Positions 1 through 12,081 of a DNA stretch of 20,341 bases are shown here, one piece after another; the first letter of the stretch is position 1; each line of letters starts with the position of its first letter. The stretch is from IMG/VR virus record IMGVR_UViG_3300030012_003148, positions 1 through 20,341 of that record. One strand, given 5' to 3'. A program made the translations under genes and the position numbers. The stretch is from a virus. Below the pieces are notes generated by a model. The model was not told the DNA's origin, ran no database searches, and saw only the letters and a list, made by a program, of their open reading frames with translations.

Positions 1-320
1 AAGTCAGCTTTAGTTAAATTTGGAGTCTGATTCTTATCAACTTTCATAGTTCCATCTCCTCTTTTACGTGCTGCCTCTACGCCGAATGTACTAAGCACCC
101 CCGTCAGAATCGAAGCGGGGAAGGTGATATCCTTGGGTTCTGTGCTATACCCTGGAATGGTTATGTAGTTTAAGCTAACGATAAAACCGGACCACCCAAC
201 TACGACAAGCCTTACTATGACTGAGATAAAGGCTAATTGTTCCTCTTTATCATCTATGTTGTCTTTAATTTTTTGAAAGACGTTTTTCTTTTTAACATCT
301 TCTTGATTCTTGTCTGTCAT
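1..320 (-). CDS. Small membrane protein, holin-like, cut by the left edge
   Basis: I found this by reading the minus strand: ATG at 318-320 opens a frame with no stop to the window edge, giving 106 complete codons. The first 28 residues are charged (MTDKNQEDVKKKNVFQ...). Then comes a hydrophobic segment at about residues 29-52 (LAFISVIVRLVVVGWSGFIV) and a second, weaker one at about 67-84 (FPASILTGVLSTFGVEAA), followed by a basic, hydrophilic tail with AARKRGDG. A charged N-terminus, two short membrane helices and a charged tail fit a class II holin or another small phage inner-membrane protein; the holin role is inferred, not shown. It is divergent from the plus-strand gene at 391, with about 70 bases between them. 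The C-terminus lies outside the window. Confidence 0.75.
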   Translation of the reverse strand, partial: MTDKNQEDVKKKNVFQKIKDNIDDKEEQLAFISVIVRLVVVGWSGFIVSLNYITIPGYSTEPKDITFPASILTGVLSTFGVEAARKRGDGTMKVDKNQTPNLTKAD

Positions 321-390: not shown

Positions 391-888
391 ATGTGGAAAT
401 TAATTCCTTTGTTTTTGTTGGTGTCACTCCCAGTAAAAGCAGATATTACTCATAAATTATCCAGCAGTGTGCAACTCACTACAAACGCTGCAGCAACTCA
501 AGTTGAGAGGATTGGTACATCATATGCAGTTTCGGGATCAGGGGTTGATACAACATACACACCTACTGGTGGTAGTGCAGTTTCAGATGGTCTAGGATCT
601 CTTACCATAAGTAGTGGCGTTGGAGCAGTACCAAGCTTAGAAGTTACACAGAAAACAGCTGGTAATAGCTTCTCTTTTACGCAATCCTTTACACAAGGAG
701 ATGCGGTTGCTACAAGTGCTCCCAGTGTTGGAGCTGTGGGTAATTTCAGTAGTCAAACATCAACTGCAGCGGGATCAGCAGGTGACCTCGCCGGTACAAT
801 CACAACATCTGGCGCAGTAACACTAACTGGGGGTGGTGCTGGATCAAGTGCTATAGGGCAATTTGTTAGCGAAATTTCAGTAAAATGA
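391..888 (+). CDS. Exported Ser/Thr/Gly-rich protein with signal peptide
   Basis: The 165-residue protein starts with a short classical Sec signal peptide (MWKLIPLFLLVSLPVKA, cleavage expected before D18). The mature part is low-complexity and rich in Ser, Thr, Gly and Ala with no cysteine, and probably forms beta structure. No enzymatic motif is visible and I do not recognise a named family. It is the first of three consecutive plus-strand genes whose products all look exported, in a window otherwise coded on the minus strand. Its stop TGA overlaps an ATG (ATGA at 885-888) that opens a small alternative frame. There is no Shine-Dalgarno match in the AT-rich leader. Possible roles are an envelope-acting protein made late in infection or a virion surface protein; the sequence does not decide. 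Confidence 0.75.
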   Translation: MWKLIPLFLLVSLPVKADITHKLSSSVQLTTNAAATQVERIGTSYAVSGSGVDTTYTPTGGSAVSDGLGSLTISSGVGAVPSLEVTQKTAGNSFSFTQSFTQGDAVATSAPSVGAVGNFSSQTSTAAGSAGDLAGTITTSGAVTLTGGGAGSSAIGQFVSEISVK

Positions 889-1049
889 AATTAAACAATC
901 ATGCCTTTACTTGTAATACAGGAGATTCTCCAGTAATGATTGATGAGAACCATGAAAACCATCCAAAATGTGATACTTGTGGTCGCTGTAAGCAGCATGA
1001 ATGCCGCTGTTCAAGCCGTTCCCTTAGTGCCAAACTTTCAGACTGGTAG
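885..1049 (+). CDS. Possible 54-aa cysteine-rich ORF, coupled by ATGA
   Basis: The ATG at 885 overlaps the TGA of the preceding gene and opens 54 codons ending in TAG at 1047-1049. A second in-frame ATG at 936 lies 11 bases after AGGAG (920-924), a better Shine-Dalgarno spacing than that of the overlapping gene's own start at 943. The product carries CDTCGRCKQHECRC at about residues 29-42, a dense metal-ligand-like cluster. Against it: the cysteine codons arise where the frame of the overlapping valine-rich signal peptide (GTG/GTC/GTA codons) is read shifted, which by itself produces TGT. It may be a real overlapping small gene, a leader peptide that couples translation of the next gene, or chance. 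Confidence 0.25.
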   Translation: MKLNNHAFTCNTGDSPVMIDENHENHPKCDTCGRCKQHECRCSSRSLSAKLSDW

Positions 1050-1392
1050 TCTCACTAGTCACACTGAAACAACTTCTACCGTAACAGAAACAATAAACGT
1101 TATTGATTATCAAACTGGATGGCAGTACACTGTGACTGGGAACAATGTTTCGACGGATGCAAACAGCTTAGTTCCTCCAGCTCAGACTACGACGCAAACA
1201 GTTAATGGAGTTCAGTCATCTTGGACAAATTTAGATGGTTCAAATATGCCAAACTTCACTGTCACGGACTCTTCAAAACCGTGGCAACTAACTACAACTC
1301 TAAGCCAACCTGGATTAAAGACTCAGACAATAATTCAAAGAACAACAGAAATAAATTCAGTAACAGATACAGTATCAACATTCAGTCAATAA
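943..1392 (+). CDS. Exported Thr-rich protein with signal peptide
   Basis: About 149 residues. A TTG at 940 extends the frame by one codon, and a further ATG lies at 952. The start MKTIQNVILVVAVSSMNAAV... (from 952) is a typical Sec signal peptide with cleavage expected after VQA. The mature part is rich in Thr, Ser, Gln and Asn with no cysteine and many alternating polar/beta-branched residues, suggesting an extracellular or virion beta-structured protein. I recognise no catalytic motif or named family. It is the middle gene of the exported plus-strand trio. Its TAA stop (1390-1392) overlaps the region where the third gene's signal peptide begins in another frame. The nearest AGGAG is 18 bases from ATG 943, rather far, so translation may depend on coupling to the upstream frame. 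Confidence 0.7.
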   Translation: MRTMKTIQNVILVVAVSSMNAAVQAVPLVPNFQTGSLTSHTETTSTVTETINVIDYQTGWQYTVTGNNVSTDANSLVPPAQTTTQTVNGVQSSWTNLDGSNMPNFTVTDSSKPWQLTTTLSQPGLKTQTIIQRTTEINSVTDTVSTFSQ

Positions 1393-2072
1393 AATATTAT
1401 TTAGCAACCTTACTAAATATAATTTATTTATCTCCTACTATCGTTCGTGCATCTGATGTTGGGGGAGTTTCTGCAACTGCAAATCCAGTAGCAAATTCAT
1501 CCGGAAGTGTTACGAATCAAGCTATACAGGTGCTTCAGGGTCCTTACATAACTAATACTTATGGAAATGGTGTTCAGTGTCAAGGACCAACATTAAATAT
1601 CACCCCATTTCTTACGACCTCAAATTCTTGGAAGGAGCCATATGAGGCTTACTATAATGATCCTGTCTTTGATACCTCTGATTCAGATAATGATGGAGTT
1701 ATGGACAACCCAGGTACTATCCTTTACTACAAACCTACTAGGACAGGTCAGAAGGCTAATCATAATATTGGTTGGGGTATTTCAGCCACAATATCAATAC
1801 CTCTTTCTAAACGTCATAATGAGTCCTGTTTAACTGCAGCTTCGAGTCAGAATAAATTAACTCAACAATTAATTGCTAATAAAAGATTAGATTTTGAAAT
1901 GGCAAGATTAAAACATTGTGCCGAGCAGAAAAAACTTGGAGTGTCATTTCATCCTAATAGTCCCTCCTTTCAAATCTGTGCAGATATTGTTGTGACAAAT
2001 CCTCATGGTGTTATTCCGAATCATGAGCACGTACTTTCGTCAGAATCTTCGACTTCTTCAAATGAGCAGTAG
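1380..2072 (+). CDS. Exported protein with Ca-binding-type motif; start codon unclear
   Basis: The frame is open from ATG 1221, but the sequence before about 1380 is the shadow of the upstream gene. A signal peptide (IKYYLATLLNIIYLSPTIVRA, read from position 1389) begins exactly where the upstream gene stops, and no ATG, GTG or TTG lies close to it; only ATT at 1380 and ATA at 1389 (overlapping the TAA) are available. I place the start at ATT 1380, giving about 230 residues, with low certainty on that end. The mature protein has four cysteines, an acidic DSDNDGVMDNPG stretch like thrombospondin type-3 calcium-binding motifs, and a His-rich end (NPHGVIPNHEHV). I recall similar conserved proteins in cyanophages but know no function. 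Its 3' end overlaps the convergent minus-strand gene by 62 bases. Confidence 0.7.
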   Translation: MQSIKYYLATLLNIIYLSPTIVRASDVGGVSATANPVANSSGSVTNQAIQVLQGPYITNTYGNGVQCQGPTLNITPFLTTSNSWKEPYEAYYNDPVFDTSDSDNDGVMDNPGTILYYKPTRTGQKANHNIGWGISATISIPLSKRHNESCLTAASSQNKLTQQLIANKRLDFEMARLKHCAEQKKLGVSFHPNSPSFQICADIVVTNPHGVIPNHEHVLSSESSTSSNEQ

Positions 2073-2754
2073 TAGAAAATAATTTTTTTTCTTTTTTACC
2101 TGATAATTTTTGAATTTTTTTAATTAATTGTTTTATTAAAGGCTTTATTAACCTTAATAATGGTGTTGCTAAGGCAGCTGAAGCTGTTGCTACCACTGCA
2201 ATAGTTGCTGTAGTGCTTAATTGACTAACAGATGGAATATATTTTTGAATAGGAGTAGTGAATTCGTAATTTGTTATACAAGTTTTACCGTCAGAACTCA
2301 GAGAATGAGAAACGACGATCTCTCTTGCCTCTCCATTTCTTATATCTCCTACACGCAAGTCATTAGGGCCAGGGCAAGGTACAGTTTCTTGATTAGGTAT
2401 TTTAGGTATTTCATTTAACGGAGGTGTTGTAGATCCAGTATCAGGTGGTGGTGGTACAACAGGAACAGGTTCAGGCTTTACATATATTAAATTCTCTGGT
2501 TCATAATTTAAAGGTTCGAAACTAGGTGTAGCTCCATCACAAAGAATTATATTTTGATCATCTTCTTCTAAAAGTTTTTGTGATTTTTTGTTTGCAGGAT
2601 TATATTTAACACATCCTGGGACTTCAATAATTGGACTGCCTATTTGAAGGGTGACTGGCACCGTCGGAGGTAATATATTTAAAGACTTTATTTGTAAAAT
2701 ATTAGTTTTCGGTAAAAAAATATCCCCGATTTTTATGTCAGGGATATCAGGCAT
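2011..2754 (-). CDS. Proline-rich protein with C-terminal membrane segment
   Basis: 247 residues in three parts. Residues 1-78 are beta-rich with Cys48 and Cys72. Residues about 79-129 are proline-rich (VKPEPVPVVPPPPDTG) and probably extended. After a segment with Cys127 and Cys159, residues 181-203 are a hydrophobic helix (TATIAVVATASAALATPLL), followed by a strongly basic C-terminus. This is a tail-anchored layout with a long, stiff stalk, as expected for a protein that spans a periplasm; a spanin-like or membrane-penetrating role is an inference. The start codon shares a base with the upstream stop (TGATG), so it is translationally coupled to the 73-aa membrane protein. The last 62 bases overlap the convergent exported-protein gene. 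Confidence 0.72.
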   Translation of the reverse strand: MPDIPDIKIGDIFLPKTNILQIKSLNILPPTVPVTLQIGSPIIEVPGCVKYNPANKKSQKLLEEDDQNIILCDGATPSFEPLNYEPENLIYVKPEPVPVVPPPPDTGSTTPPLNEIPKIPNQETVPCPGPNDLRVGDIRNGEAREIVVSHSLSSDGKTCITNYEFTTPIQKYIPSVSQLSTTATIAVVATASAALATPLLRLIKPLIKQLIKKIQKLSGKKEKKLFSTTAHLKKSKILTKVRAHDSE

Positions 2755-2975
2755 CAGAGCTTAGGAACTCCTATTACAGGTCCAGTGGATTTTGGTAATT
2801 TAGGAATTGCATTATCTATTACATTTGGTAATAGATCACTTACAGATTCAATAACTTTATCTTGAACAGAGTTAATAATCTTATCTCTTTGTAAATAAAC
2901 AATTAAACCAGTACCTACTATACTAATAGAAACCAAACCTGAAGCTATTGCGATTGTGTTAATAATCTTTTGCAT
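2754..2975 (-). CDS. Small N-terminally anchored membrane protein
   Basis: 73 residues. A hydrophobic helix at residues 6-28 (NTIAIASGLVSISIVGTGLI) is followed by YLQRDK, then an amphipathic helix (INSVQDKVIESVSDLLPNVI) and a proline-containing end (PKLPKSTGPVIGVPKL). The PVIGVPK end resembles SPIIEVPG in the next gene (247 aa, residues 40-47), which hints at related or interacting segments. It lies two bases downstream of the coiled-coil gene and overlaps the 247-aa gene by one base (TGATG), so the three are probably made together. Holin, spanin partner or minor virion membrane protein are all possible; no family recognised. Confidence 0.68.
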   Translation of the reverse strand: MQKIINTIAIASGLVSISIVGTGLIVYLQRDKIINSVQDKVIESVSDLLPNVIDNAIPKLPKSTGPVIGVPKL

Positions 2976-2977
2976 AA

Positions 2978-3175
2978 TTAATTGTCTTCTTTATTACAAG
3001 TTTCATCAGAAGCAATTAAATTGATTATTTCTTGAAGAGCACCCATTTTTGCTTTCCAAGCATCTGAAATTTGTACTAACTCATTATTTTTAGCAGCATG
3101 CTGTTGCTCTAAAACTCCTATTTCGTTTCTCAGTTCTGTTTCTCTTTTTTTTAATTCGTCAAGATGATGAGACAT
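2978..3175 (-). CDS. Small coiled-coil protein
   Basis: 65 residues, predicted almost entirely as one coiled coil: LDELKKRETELRNEIGVLEQ and the following residues keep a heptad pattern to about residue 55, then a short acidic tail with one cysteine (DETCNKEDN). There is no membrane segment. It leads the three-gene set 3175 to 2011, separated by only two bases from the next gene. The start is preceded by an A-rich leader without a Shine-Dalgarno match. A rod-like adaptor, chaperone or oligomerisation factor for the neighbouring membrane proteins is plausible; function unknown. Confidence 0.68.
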   Translation of the reverse strand: MSHHLDELKKRETELRNEIGVLEQQHAAKNNELVQISDAWKAKMGALQEIINLIASDETCNKEDN

Positions 3176-3799: not shown

Positions 3800-6700
3800 T
3801 TATGCAGCTTCAAGGGCTGTGACTTTTACTGATAATTCTTTTATTGCATTTAACATATGCCAGAAAATATCGTCAGTATGCAAAGATTTAATACCAGTAG
3901 AACAAGTAACAACAGTGCTTGGTAATACTTTTTCAGATTCTTGTGCAATTAAACCAGTTTGTATCCCTGTTTTATCTACAACAGCAGATTTAATAACATC
4001 TTTAAGTTCTGGGTTATCTGTAATTATTTCATCTTCTGTTTTATATTCAAAATTTCTTACCTGTAATTGGTTAATAATTGATAAACCAGTGTCGTAATTA
4101 ACTATATTTTTCTTGATTCTTTCATCAGATGTTGTATCAAAGTGACTCTCATTTGCTTCATTAAATGTTCCTAAATTACCACCTAAGAACATTTGCTGTT
4201 GACCTTTACCAGTTAAGCCAGTTCCAATTGTATATTCAAGGTCGACAGAACTAGAAGAAACATCAGTACCATGACCAATCAATACATTTTTGTCTCCACC
4301 ACCTATACTATCACCAGTTTGATAACCAATGCAAACATTATCTTCTGCTGACGTAGCATTTTGCATAGCTCTAACTCCAATGGCTACGTTAGCACCTGCA
4401 GTTGTAATGGTACTCATAGTATAATTTCCAAGCGCTACATTATTTAAAGCAGTAGTACTATTTATTAAAGCTTCACGTCCTAGGGCAGTATTATTGCTAC
4501 CAGTTGTGCATGCTTGTAAAGCACTGTCCCCAATAGCAGTGTTATCTCCTCCTGTTGTATTATTTTGTAATGCCTGAAAACCTACAGCCGTATTATCACC
4601 AGCAGTTGTGTTTGCACTTAAAGCTGAAGAACCTACAGCTACGTTCTGAATTCCAGTTGTGTTATTAGATAAAGCTGCCCGACCTACGGCAACATTATTA
4701 TCAGCAGTTGTGTTAACATTTAAAGCATTAACACCAATACCAATATTAAAGACACCAGTTGTGTTTGATTGTAGTGCGTCTTTACCAACGGCAACATTTT
4801 CAAAACCTGAAGTATTTTGACCTAAAGCATCTTTACCAATACCTACATTGTTATAGCCTGTAGTATTAGCATCTAAAGCTGAAGCACCTACAGCCGTATT
4901 TGATGCTCCAGTTGTGTTTAGAGTTAAAGCAAGCGCTCCTACAGCAGTATTATTGTTTGCAGTGGTATTTTTTAATAACGCATTAACACCGAGTCCAGTG
5001 TTATTAACTCCTGTTGTGTTATCACCTAAACAGTTATATCCCACAGCAGTATTATCACTTGCAGAAGTATTTGCATCTAATGCATTAGCTCCAACAGCTA
5101 CGTTTTTATCTCCAGTTGTGTTAGACATCAAGGCTTTATATCCTAAACCAGTGTTATTACTTGCTGTTGAGTTTGAAAATAAAGCACCCGAACCAAGAGC
5201 CGTATTTTGACTTCCAGTAGTGTTGGCGAACATTGCCCCACCAATAGTTCCAGCATGATTGTTACCTACTGCTGTGTTTGCAATTCCAGTTGTGTTGTTG
5301 TATAGAGCTTGAAATCCAACAGCGAGTAGACCAATACCAGTTGTATTACTAAATAAAGCTTGAGTACCTACAGCAGTTATTTCTCCTGTGGTAGTTGACT
5401 TTCCAGCTTGTGCACCAACAGCCGTATTGGAGTCTGCAGTAGTGTTATTTTGTAATGCTTGATAACCAAAACCAGAATTATTACCTCCAGATGTGTTTCC
5501 ACTTACTGCTCCAAAACCAAAAGCACTAAGATTTGCTCCTGTTGTATTTGTTGTTGCTGCTGCATAGCCTAGGGCTGTGTTTGAATGTCCAGTTGTGTTT
5601 GCTTTTAAAGAATCTTTTCCAACGGCAGTATTATTTGATGCCGTAGTGTTAGCTACAAGTGAATCATGTCCTACCGCAGTATTATTAGATCCTGTAGTAT
5701 TTCCTGAAAGTGCAACATATCCAAGAGCTGTGTTGTTAGAAGCAGTTGTATTGTCATCCAAAGCATTAGCACCTACGGCTGTGTTCTCTGCTCCAGTTGT
5801 GTTTGCACTTAGAGCTTCTTGTCCTACAGCTGTATTTGCATCTGCTGTTGTATTTGCATCTAAGGCTAAAGTTCCAACAGCTACGTTTGCTCCTCCAGTT
5901 GTGTTTAAAAGTAATGAGTTATATCCAACAGCAACATTATTAGAGGCTGTGGTATTTGAACCTAAGGCTGATCTACCACAAGCTGTATTGTTATTTCCAG
6001 TAGTGTTTGCATCTAAAGCAATAGCACCAAAGGCAGCATTCTCTGTGCCAGTGGTATTTAATAGCATTGCATTTTGTCCGACAGCAGTATTAGCAGATCC
6101 AGTTGTGTTTGCTTCTAAAGCATTAGCACCTATAGCAGTGTTATTATTAGCCGTTGTATTATTTCTTAAAGAATCCGTACCTACAGCAGTGTTTAATGTT
6201 CCTGTTGTGTTAGCACTTAGAGCAACAATACCCATTGCTACGTTGTTAGATGCTGTTGTATTAGCAGATAAAGAATTGGTACCAACCGCTACATTATTAT
6301 TTCCTGTAGTATTTGCATCTAACGCGGCTTTACCTAAAGCTACGTTTGAATCTCCAGTTGTATTAGACAATAATGCGTCGTGACCGACTGCTACGTTGTC
6401 ATCACCCTCTGTGCTTACCTCCATAGCAGAATCACCTATGGCGATATTTCTTGATCCTGTCGTGTTATCTTCAAAAACCTCATAACCTATTGCTACGTTT
6501 GAAGATCCTGTAGTATTTAACTCTGCTGCTCTAGCTCCAATAGCTACATTTCGGTGTCCAGTTGTGTTTGTTTTTAAAGCTTCATCTCCTATTGCCACAT
6601 TATTAGACGCAGTTGTACTTGCAATTAAAGCACTTCTTCCAATTGCTACGTTTTTTTCTCCAGTTGTATTTGTCCCTAAAGCATTATTACCAACAGCAGT

Positions 6701-8290
6701 GTTATTAGAACCTGTAGTGTTACCTCCAAGAGCCGACCTACCAAGACCAGTATTACTACTTGCGGTTGTATTATTAAGTAAAGCATTTGCACCAAGAGCA
6801 ACATTTCTATCTCCAGTTGTATTTGCTCCTAATGCTTTATCACCTACAGCAGTATTAAACCCTGCAGTAGTATTAGCATCTAATGTTAAATAACCTATTG
6901 CTACATTACTTGATCCAGTTGTGTTTGCTCCTAAAGAATTTTTTCCAGCAGCTACATTATTTGATCCAGTTGTGGTGTTATTCATAGAGAAACGGCCAAT
7001 AGCAACATTACCCTCTGCTGTTGTAGAATTTTCTAAAGCTATTTGACCTACCGCAACATTGTCTGCTCCAGTTGTGTTTGTACTTAACGCTTGCATTCCT
7101 ACCGCAGTATTATTAGAAGCAGTAGTATTTGAAGCCAATGCTGATAAACCTATGCCAACATTATTTGATGCTGTTGTATTTGCTCCTAGTGCATTACGAC
7201 CTACGGCAGTTGAATAGTTACCAGTAGTATTTGCATCTAAAGCGTTACCTCCTACAGCAGTAAGTTGAGCGCCAGTTGTGTTTGCTGTTAATGCCTCGTT
7301 TCCAATAGCGGTGTTATTACTAGCGGTAGTATTTTCTTTAAGACAGTTAAATCCAACAGCACTATTATTTATCCCAGTGGTATTTGACCTAAGACTAAAA
7401 CGACCAACAGAAACGTGACCATCTCCAGTTGTGTTTGCTGTTAAAGCTTCATAACCAACAGCAGTATTGTTAGAAGCAGTAGTATTGGCATCTAAAGCAC
7501 TAGCACCTACAGCAGTATTAGAACCTCCAGTGTTTTGATTTAAAGCTACATATCCAATTGCAGTGTTGTTATGTGATGAAATGTTTGTTGATAAAGAACC
7601 ACTACCTAGGGCAGTATTATTTCCACCAGAGGTATCAGCATCTAAAGAATTTCTACCAACTGCGGTGTTATTTGTACCAGAAGTTAATACTGTTAGTGTA
7701 TTTTGACCGATAGCAGTATTGTTTCCACCAGTAACAGAACCATCTAAAGCACTTTCTCCAAGAACTGTGTTACCAGCAACAGAGTTTGCACCTTTACCAA
7801 CACTTATTGAGTTTATGGTTGCATCTTTAGAAGTAACTGTTAATCCATTTCCATCTATATTTACTATTTCAGTTGCGTTAGATACAAATCCAATATCACC
7901 TGATCCTTTTTTATACAAACCAGTGTCATCGTCGTTCGTGAAGGTTATGGATGGAGCACCTATTGATCCGTCAGGGAATGTTCCTCCTGCATTTAAATAA
8001 TCAGCTGTAGCATAAATTATTCCAAAAAAAGCATGCCCTCCAGTTGGAGCAGAACTGAAAACTATATTATTACCTGTGAGTGTAAATCCTGAAGAGCCAG
8101 TAGGATCTGGTTCTTGTATTACACCATTTACTGATATTAAAACTTGTTGAGGTGTTTTAGGAAAAGGAACTGGTGTTGATCCAGCAACTAATAAAGCAAA
8201 GGAAGTAGTGCTACCATTAAAGCTACTACTTATGTCATCTATTAATCTGTAGTCATCAGCAGACCTGATGTTATTTCCAATATATGGCAT
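3800..8290 (-). CDS. Giant tail fiber: 17-residue repeats plus S74 chaperone
   Basis: 1496 residues. Residues 1-93 are an N-terminal module shared with the 175-aa neighbour. Residues 110-173 (ITFTNDDDTGLYKKGSGDIG) are a common fiber linker. Residues 174-1332 consist of 68 tandem 17-residue repeats of consensus NNTAVGxxALxANTTGx, resembling the heads of trimeric YadA-like adhesins and expected to fold as a long left-handed trimeric beta roll. The C-terminus has SDERIKKNI at 1388-1396, the signature of the S74 peptidase/intramolecular chaperone domain of endosialidase-type fibers. Ser1388 and Lys1393 match the catalytic pair, and the protein should cleave itself before Ser1388 after trimerisation. 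It ends in a coiled coil (NAIKELSVKVTALEA). Probable role: receptor-binding or host-adhesion fiber. Confidence 0.9.
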   Translation of the reverse strand: MPYIGNNIRSADDYRLIDDISSSFNGSTTSFALLVAGSTPVPFPKTPQQVLISVNGVIQEPDPTGSSGFTLTGNNIVFSSAPTGGHAFFGIIYATADYLNAGGTFPDGSIGAPSITFTNDDDTGLYKKGSGDIGFVSNATEIVNIDGNGLTVTSKDATINSISVGKGANSVAGNTVLGESALDGSVTGGNNTAIGQNTLTVLTSGTNNTAVGRNSLDADTSGGNNTALGSGSLSTNISSHNNTAIGYVALNQNTGGSNTAVGASALDANTTASNNTAVGYEALTANTTGDGHVSVGRFSLRSNTTGINNSAVGFNCLKENTTASNNTAIGNEALTANTTGAQLTAVGGNALDANTTGNYSTAVGRNALGANTTASNNVGIGLSALASNTTASNNTAVGMQALSTNTTGADNVAVGQIALENSTTAEGNVAIGRFSMNNTTTGSNNVAAGKNSLGANTTGSSNVAIGYLTLDANTTAGFNTAVGDKALGANTTGDRNVALGANALLNNTTASSNTGLGRSALGGNTTGSNNTAVGNNALGTNTTGEKNVAIGRSALIASTTASNNVAIGDEALKTNTTGHRNVAIGARAAELNTTGSSNVAIGYEVFEDNTTGSRNIAIGDSAMEVSTEGDDNVAVGHDALLSNTTGDSNVALGKAALDANTTGNNNVAVGTNSLSANTTASNNVAMGIVALSANTTGTLNTAVGTDSLRNNTTANNNTAIGANALEANTTGSANTAVGQNAMLLNTTGTENAAFGAIALDANTTGNNNTACGRSALGSNTTASNNVAVGYNSLLLNTTGGANVAVGTLALDANTTADANTAVGQEALSANTTGAENTAVGANALDDNTTASNNTALGYVALSGNTTGSNNTAVGHDSLVANTTASNNTAVGKDSLKANTTGHSNTALGYAAATTNTTGANLSAFGFGAVSGNTSGGNNSGFGYQALQNNTTADSNTAVGAQAGKSTTTGEITAVGTQALFSNTTGIGLLAVGFQALYNNTTGIANTAVGNNHAGTIGGAMFANTTGSQNTALGSGALFSNSTASNNTGLGYKALMSNTTGDKNVAVGANALDANTSASDNTAVGYNCLGDNTTGVNNTGLGVNALLKNTTANNNTAVGALALTLNTTGASNTAVGASALDANTTGYNNVGIGKDALGQNTSGFENVAVGKDALQSNTTGVFNIGIGVNALNVNTTADNNVAVGRAALSNNTTGIQNVAVGSSALSANTTAGDNTAVGFQALQNNTTGGDNTAIGDSALQACTTGSNNTALGREALINSTTALNNVALGNYTMSTITTAGANVAIGVRAMQNATSAEDNVCIGYQTGDSIGGGDKNVLIGHGTDVSSSSVDLEYTIGTGLTGKGQQQMFLGGNLGTFNEANESHFDTTSDERIKKNIVNYDTGLSIINQLQVRNFEYKTEDEIITDNPELKDVIKSAVVDKTGIQTGLIAQESEKVLPSTVVTCSTGIKSLHTDDIFWHMLNAIKELSVKVTALEAA
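4295..7771 (-). repeat. 68-unit, 51-bp coding repeat of the giant fiber
   Basis: The period is 17 codons. I counted 68 units in the translation, nearly all exactly 17 residues: unit 5/6 and unit 48 are one residue short, and unit 50 has a 7-residue insertion (NNHAGTIGGAMFANTTG). The position after NTT alternates irregularly between Gly and Ala (NTTG or NTTAS). Units are diverged at the DNA level: the NTTG core is spelled with different third bases in successive units, so the array looks old and maintained rather than freshly expanded. Confidence 0.9.
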
Positions 8291-11838: not shown

Positions 11839-12081
11839 ATGGAACCGCAACTAATTGCCGCAATTATTTCAGGTAGTATTGGAGCTTTTGCTGGTATCAG
11901 TAGAGCCTTGGGAAATTTTAATAAAAAATTAGACAAAAGATTTGAAAATATAGAGACTAATGTTGATAGACTTAGAAATGAAGTGATACATGATTACGTT
12001 TTGAAAGAAGATTTTTTAAGAGAAATGCAAGCTGTCCATACAAAACTGGATAGAATATTAGATCATTTACTAAGTAAATAA
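11839..12081 (+). CDS. Holin-like N-anchored coiled-coil protein, isolated on plus strand
   Basis: 80 residues. Residues 4-24 (QLIAAIISGSIGAFAGISRA) are a Gly/Ala-rich membrane helix, followed by LGNFNKKLDKRFENIETNVD and a long coiled coil ending YVLKEDFLREMQAVHTKLDR. The layout resembles small phage lysis-associated membrane proteins (holin or i-spanin type), though cysteine or lipobox features are absent. It is the only plus-strand gene between 2.1 kb and the right edge. Its stop TAA (12079-12081) abuts the convergent neighbour's stop (TAATTA, zero bases between). A strong GGGAGG lies eight bases before the ATG. Separate orientation and strong but possibly masked translation suggest timing different from the structural genes. 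I recall similar proteins in marine cyanophages. Confidence 0.8.
   Translation: MEPQLIAAIISGSIGAFAGISRALGNFNKKLDKRFENIETNVDRLRNEVIHDYVLKEDFLREMQAVHTKLDRILDHLLSK

Follow-up and report, generated by a model that had tools for sequence, protein, structure and literature searches.

What is the role of three consecutive genes for apparently exported proteins that lie on the strand opposite to the structural genes of a virus? The question is raised by the left end of the stretch of DNA analysed here (the window), which at 20.3 kb is a whole virus record [IMG/VR:IMGVR_UViG_3300030012_003148], probably a genome fragment, with structural and fibre genes on its minus strand. In the phage collection the major capsid protein matches that of a single record, the freshwater Synechococcus phage S-EIV1 (71% identity), so the window belongs to an S-EIV1-like cyanophage, not a T4-like one. 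The minus strand also encodes a 1496 residue fibre-like protein (3800-8290), consisting mostly of a short tandem repeat around 'NNTAVGxxALxxNTT'; its C-terminal region, ending 'DERIKKNIV...', we take to resemble an intramolecular chaperone. A lone plus-strand gene within the structural block (11839-12081, 80 aa) matches phrog_462, labeled 'lipoprotein' (E=1.9e-10). A search with Rfam found no RNA elements in the window.

The original prediction described three plus-strand genes for exported proteins. Two of these stand as drawn (391-888 and 943-1392), as does the frame ending at 2072, but the start of the third, placed near 1380, belongs at a TTG codon at 1221. The features at this end of the window are:

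1-320, minus strand: DUF6450 membrane protein (T4-GC 218 family, phrog_2714), assigned from PF20048 (E=1.1e-22), phrog_2714 and hydrophobicity; the gene starts at 320 and its C-terminal part is missing past the window edge

339-363, no strand assigned: degenerate version of an inverted repeat, situated where the promoters of DUF6450 and gene 1 diverge and located by visual comparison of upstream sequences

391-888, plus strand: gene 1, putative exported protein of 165 aa, phrog_564 (E=5e-57) / T4-GC 237, with a signal-like N-terminus

943-1392, plus strand: gene 2 (start at 940 or 943), putative exported protein, DUF6322 / phrog_650 / T4-GC 236 (PF19847, E=1.7e-30; S-SM1 annotation)

1221-2072, plus strand: gene 3, 283 aa, phrog_848 / T4-GC 235, starting at TTG 1221, with an alternative GTG at 1281

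1221-1392, plus strand: two-frame stretch that encodes both the C-terminal end of protein 2 and, read in -1, the N-terminal extension of gene 3, recognized by stop depletion

2011-2754, minus strand: r1, T4-GC 234 / phrog_570 (E=4e-59; S-SM1 synteny, charge and cysteine counts), whose 3' end overlaps the end of gene 3 (2011-2072)

2754-2975, minus strand: r2, T4-GC 414 / phrog_568, small, with a predicted N-terminal membrane segment (database match, S-SM1 synteny, hydrophobicity)

2978-3175, minus strand: small coiled-coil protein adjoining the cassette and not conserved with it, having no relative at other cassette loci

The gene order DUF6450 (minus), genes 1, 2 and 3 (plus), r1 and r2 (minus) is repeated, not always exactly, in dozens of viral contigs from the environment, and the annotation of phage S-SM1 equates the cassette genes in order with T4-GC 218, 237, 236, 235, 234 and 414. 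A further member, GC 219 (a phrog_605 membrane protein), adjoins the cassette in relatives and falls outside the window edge. DUF6450, gene 2 and gene 3 form the core, and gene 1, r1, r2 and the phrog_605 protein are its usual extras. The plus-strand genes had been noted to face, tail to tail, a minus-strand set of three, and a comparison had been suggested to see whether the six genes travel together. The facing arrangement and the synteny are confirmed; the coiled-coil gene, which has no relatives at the other loci among about 85 and is confined to the window, drops out of the conserved set, and DUF6450 and the phrog_605 protein join it.

This cassette is already known as a cluster of hypothetical genes. 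T4-GC 218, 219, 234, 235 and 237 plus a plasmid stability protein were found clustered in 15 of 16 T4-like cyanophages, where they were suggested to form a functional, mobile cassette (Sullivan 2010 [PMC3037559]). PHROG, Pfam and the S-SM1 annotation agree that homologues of T4-GC 218, 234, 235, 237 and the plasmid stability protein are adjacent in the window, here in an S-EIV1-like carrier and not a T4-like one. The portions of that paper considered here report no function, export signals, overlap analysis or members outside the T4-like phages [PMC3037559]. Likewise, the literature compared, which covers the field in part, does not mention that the cassette occurs outside T4-like phages, that its core is all-or-none or that the gene overlap is selected, nor a link to spanin-less phages, all described below.

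The cassette is shared between lineages of phages infecting marine picocyanobacteria. A viral-library fold search and sequence searches located relatives in T7-like cyanopodoviruses and the siphovirus-like phage MED4-184, and the cassette occurs, whole or reduced, in T7-like cyanopodoviruses, S-TIM5 and MED4-184. Profile searches recovered DUF6450, gene 2 and gene 3 in NATL2A-133, SS120-1, S-RIP2 and MED4-184; PHROGs concur for NATL2A-133 and, as regards gene 2 and DUF6450, for P-SSP7. Over 19 whole cyanophage records the core is all-or-none, occurring together in 11 (S-SM1, Syn9, P-HM1, P-SSM2, S-RSM4, S-TIM5, NATL2A-133, SS120-1, S-RIP2, P-SSP7, MED4-184) and jointly missing in 8. S-CREM2 has a single DUF6450 match, below the family cut-off, and neither gene 2 nor gene 3. 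Among viral contigs of the window's own capsid lineage, 13 of 23 carry gene 3; S-EIV1 itself does not. Relatives of gene 1 were found in 411 phage records and of gene 3 in 435, and all 445 matching phage records bear cyanophage-type or marine/uncultured names. A scan of bacterial and archaeal genomes yielded 10 contigs, filed under unrelated phyla, in which gene 3 adjoins gene 1 or gene 2; we rejected a host origin, these contigs being most likely cyanophage DNA. Two cassette-bearing contigs of 188-189 kb in bacterial genomes, L166 (a Prochlorococcus single cell) and L173 (Nonlabens xiamenensis), have the size of T4-like cyanophage genomes and are probably phage genomes or contamination.

N-termini resembling Sec-type signal peptides, which were originally predicted for all three plus-strand products, recur across the families. 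By simple rules (basic n-region, hydrophobic core, A-x-A-type site), a signal-peptide-like N-terminus is present in 69/69 relatives of gene 1 and 58/67 of gene 2. In eight of the nine gene 2 relatives that fail the rule a hydrophobic leader is still present, ending directly before a VPVVPNF-type motif; in the ninth (L047) the ORF was drawn too far upstream. Protein 3 has a signal-like segment (about 1389-1451) and an A-x-A-like site, followed by the conserved mature start VGGVSATANPVANSSGSVTNQAIQ from about 1452 and preceded by about 56 additional N-terminal residues. In none of proteins 1, 2 and 3 does the signal-like segment end in a cysteine, i.e. there is no lipobox. Gene 1, called 'OMP1' in S-RSM2, is a distant relative of gene 2 (hhalign probability 96.5%). 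The four cysteines noted in protein 3 proved invariant in its T4-like, S-EIV1-like, T7-like and MED4-184 relatives. Its calcium-type motif (DxDNDGxxDNPG) fared less well: it is partly kept in close relatives and missing from the podovirus and MED4-184 versions, and calcium binding is therefore not a defining feature of the protein.

Where gene 3 begins required closer attention. The window has no ATG, GTG or TTG near 1380 in the gene 3 frame, nearly all loci lack one where the hydrophobic segment of gene 3 begins, and in the window the frame is open back to TTG 1221, within gene 2. Near-cognate starts at ATA 1389 or ATT 1380 were rejected as not common to the relatives, unlike the overlapping open frame. 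In 76/78 loci gene 3 is read in the -1 frame with respect to gene 2. We compared the overlap with an expectation from synonymous recoding, using 33 divergent representatives (<80% nucleotide identity) and two controls. Across these representatives, which are not phylogenetically independent, so that the counts overstate the number of events, 11 stops were observed in the -1 frame of the overlap against 96.6 expected, and 28 of the 33 keep the frame open over the final 54 codons of gene 2, against 1.6 predicted. The control frames were not depleted in stops (+1 frame, 143 vs 118 expected; -1 frame further upstream, 158 vs 128). The overlap between genes 2 and 3 is under selection, and recoding with the two controls rules out an open frame that is a by-product of Thr-rich coding.

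The open -1 frame reaches a start codon formed at a conserved DUF6322 Trp codon, the preceding wobble base being A in 55 cases, G in 12, T in 6 and C in 0; loci in which stops block the frame have a later start codon, mostly ATG at -111. One locus (L064) provides a natural control, since its gene 3 follows gene 2, starting at an ATG of its own with an ordinary signal peptide, and the -1 frame contains four stops. The S-SM1 annotation likewise starts GC 235 within GC 236, and T7-like relatives have the same arrangement, with weak per-genome statistics. The constant frame relationship and the scarcity of start codons close to the signal segment would also be expected if genes 2 and 3 were one polyprotein made by -1 ribosomal frameshifting, with no internal start for gene 3. 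Against this, heptamers resembling X XXY YYZ occur in only 6/33 representatives, at no fixed place, the open frame leads to the Trp-codon start or to a later one if blocked, and L064 dispenses with the overlap altogether. Given the lack of a conserved slippery heptamer we favor internal initiation and regard frameshifting as highly improbable. Two database records bear on this region. In P-SSP7 (L260, 38376-39238) the annotated start of gene 45 (38783) is downstream of the gene's own signal segment, and the -1 frame is open back to a GTG at -111 within gene 44. In MED4-184 (L256, 4900-5020) the signal segment and mature part of gene 3 are in different frames, separated by a run of seven T just past the gene 2 stop; this may be a sequencing slip or a real shift.

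The conserved membrane partners of the exported proteins are DUF6450, r1 and r2. DUF6450 has two hydrophobic segments and charged, lysine-rich ends, and annotators of P-SSP7 predicted two helices in its version. Judged by hydrophobicity and charge, it is a candidate inner-membrane protein with holin-like topology. Class II holins also have two membrane segments, in their case with both ends inside (N-in/C-in); PHROG, Pfam and further profile searches gave no sequence match of DUF6450 to a holin family. The r1 protein is rich in proline and has four cysteines; after these come a membrane segment near the C-terminus and a basic tail (charges and cysteines counted in 82 relatives), and the positive-inside rule would place its cysteine-rich part in the periplasm. 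In r2 an N-terminal anchor is followed by only about 45 residues. A 'plasmid stability' function for r2 was discarded as an inherited database label; r2 has the appearance of a small membrane protein.

Searches for structural relatives returned chance-level or weak matches, and kinship with proteins of known structure was not demonstrated. Sequence searches of solved structures gave nothing or chance-level matches for genes 1, 2, 3 and r1. The AlphaFold2 model of protein 2 (pLDDT 76, pTM 0.36) has two 24-25 residue Ser/Thr-rich strands flanking a beta head, and its weak structural neighbors are stems of pore-forming oligomers and phage tail, collar and ring proteins, which suggests a ring or tube. 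In the model these strands resemble the stems of iota-toxin Ib and lysenin and the beta-barrels of phage tail knobs or flagellar rings; the best Foldseek match in the PDB (E 0.005) and the best Z (4.0 over 45 residues) do not demonstrate kinship with them. The strands show no amphipathic alternation, so a membrane-inserted barrel is without support from the sequence of protein 2. The model of protein 3 combines a beta-rich N-terminal half with a 42 residue helix at low confidence (pLDDT 65), and its best fold matches (PDB E 0.27, Z under 4) do not prove kinship either. PHROG, Pfam and further profile searches revealed no similarity of cassette proteins to any transporter, binding protein or enzyme. 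A known anti-phage defence system was rejected, since no PADLOC model matched any of eight cassette and neighboring proteins.

Genomic context offers some indication of timing. An [ACT]TAAATA box occurs at -28 to -35 of gene 1 in 29/69 loci, compared with a background of about 3% per 60 nt on one strand and with 3/61 for gene 2. The same box, at the same place, precedes gp25, gp9 and gp8 of S-SM1, which marks it as a T4-late-type promoter. T4-like carriers having it include S-SSM4, S-RSM2 and S-H68; it is missing from the window and most S-EIV1-like loci. In many S-EIV1-like loci an inverted repeat, TAAGTTTAC-N6-GTAAACTTA, possibly an operator or promoter element, lies between the divergent starts of DUF6450 and gene 1, with a fuller form in 12/69 loci; it is seen upstream of gene 1 in L018, L021, L022, L025 and L102, and several of the loci without the box have it instead. 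A lysozyme gene (PF00959) is found about 3 kb from DUF6450 in 10/10 loci that have the divergent arrangement and enough flanking sequence. These are S-EIV1-like carriers, and the window ends short of the corresponding position. Cyanopodoviruses have the core between the tail fibres and the small terminase, the position that holin gene 17.5 occupies in T7. The T4-like copies inspected lie among replication genes with no adjoining endolysin, away from the structural genes and on the opposite strand. Late-type promoters in T4-like carriers, the nearby lysozyme in S-EIV1-like ones and the podovirus location together argue for action on the envelope late in infection.

Exported proteins, membrane partners, conserved synteny and the all-or-none core bear out the original idea of an envelope-directed system; of the purposes suggested for it (lysis, superinfection exclusion or surface change), the evidence leans toward lysis or egress, short of proof. 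Our best explanation, held tentatively and at somewhat less than even probability, is that the cassette is a late-acting, transferable egress module that breaches the outer membrane and is not a spanin. It is favored because it accommodates the export signals, the holin-like partner, late timing, the lysis-type context and the occurrence in unrelated phages that infect one group of hosts. Proteins 1-3 would be exported and processed late in infection and would then form, within the periplasm or the outer membrane, a beta-rich, disulphide-stabilized oligomer, which together with the inner-membrane partners would breach the envelope for egress. The cassette would thus fill the task that spanins have in other Gram-negative phages by a different mechanism. 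More doubtful is the specific composition of such a machine, common to unrelated picocyanobacterial viruses, as a holin-like DUF6450 plus exported, beta-rich, disulphide-bonded proteins encoded by overlapping genes.

A survey of spanins listed about 20 marine cyanophages as spanin-less, including P-SSP7, P-HM1, P-SSM2, S-RSM4, S-SM1 and Syn9, and its authors guessed that the outer membrane of the hosts is fragile (Kongari et al. 2018 [PMC6139136]). Like two-component spanins of the Rz/Rz1 type, the cassette has an overlapping gene pair in different frames, envelope-directed products and cysteines, and by analogy may share the task of outer-membrane disruption. Unlike in those systems, the products of genes 2 and 3 include neither a lipoprotein nor an inner-membrane protein anchored by its N-terminus, both are exported, and another exported protein and several membrane proteins come with them. 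The features of an i-spanin, an N-terminal inner-membrane anchor and a coiled-coil periplasmic domain, are absent from proteins 1-3, whose leaders are of cleavable type, and from r1, whose membrane segment is near the C-terminus; r2 does carry an N-terminal anchor, but with only about 45 residues beyond it. The egress explanation must be tempered by several observations: Syn5, P60, S-PM2, PSS2, S-CBS4 and Pf-WMP4 are spanin-less [PMC6139136] yet also without the core, the T4-like copies have no endolysin next to them, the window's own lineage is without the late-type box, and the structure models are of low to middling confidence with no significant matches.

Other functions would account for part of the same evidence. 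Proteins 1-3 might cover or modify the infected cell's outer membrane, with the result that rival phages fail to adsorb or inject, or that the cell is protected until lysis. Exported, beta-rich, Ser/Thr-rich proteins common to unrelated phages that compete for the same hosts, in a transferable cassette, would suit such superinfection exclusion or host-surface alteration, but a late-type promoter, as in T4-like carriers, would act late for this purpose, genes for exclusion commonly vary and do not form a near-fixed set with holin-like and proline-rich membrane partners, and the podovirus position and lysozyme neighborhood point elsewhere; we judge this role unlikely. Rather improbable, in our estimate, is periplasmic support of the infected cell through nutrient uptake, envelope stabilization or stress protection instead of lysis. 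Cyanophages are rich in host-support genes and the S-SM1 cassette is near pstS, phoA and hsp20; on the other hand, the cassette proteins resemble no transporter, binding protein or enzyme, they are found also in small podoviruses and a 38-kb phage with few host-support genes, and the late-type promoter again fits poorly.

The proteins could instead belong to the virion, as particle-attached fibres or spikes or as a periplasm-exposed entry conduit. The podovirus genes do follow tail-fibre genes, the window genes neighbor fibre genes, and tail and collar proteins are among the weak structural neighbors of the protein 2 model. Signal peptides, however, would remove the products from the cytoplasm, where virions assemble, and in T4-like carriers the cassette is distant from the structural genes and on the other strand. 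Homologues occurring as abundant virion proteins would have contradicted the predicted secretion; in the text of Sullivan 2010 considered here, which covers three virion proteomes, the cassette genes are called hypothetical, and a single virion structural protein is counted among the 12 cyanophage-only genes present in exactly 15 genomes [PMC3037559]. We consider a virion role very improbable. The S-CREM2 virion proteome is uninformative here, as that phage is without genes 2 and 3.

Because gene 3 starts internally, the N-terminus is wrong in some public annotations of its family, for example that of P-SSP7 gene 45. Among the records tested, the DUF6450 membrane partner was never found without genes 2 and 3 in carriers (the sub-cut-off match in S-CREM2 aside). 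Much of the turnover of ocean carbon runs through marine picocyanobacteria and their phages, and if the egress explanation holds, the cassette would give named genes for how spanin-less cyanophages open the outer membrane of their hosts.
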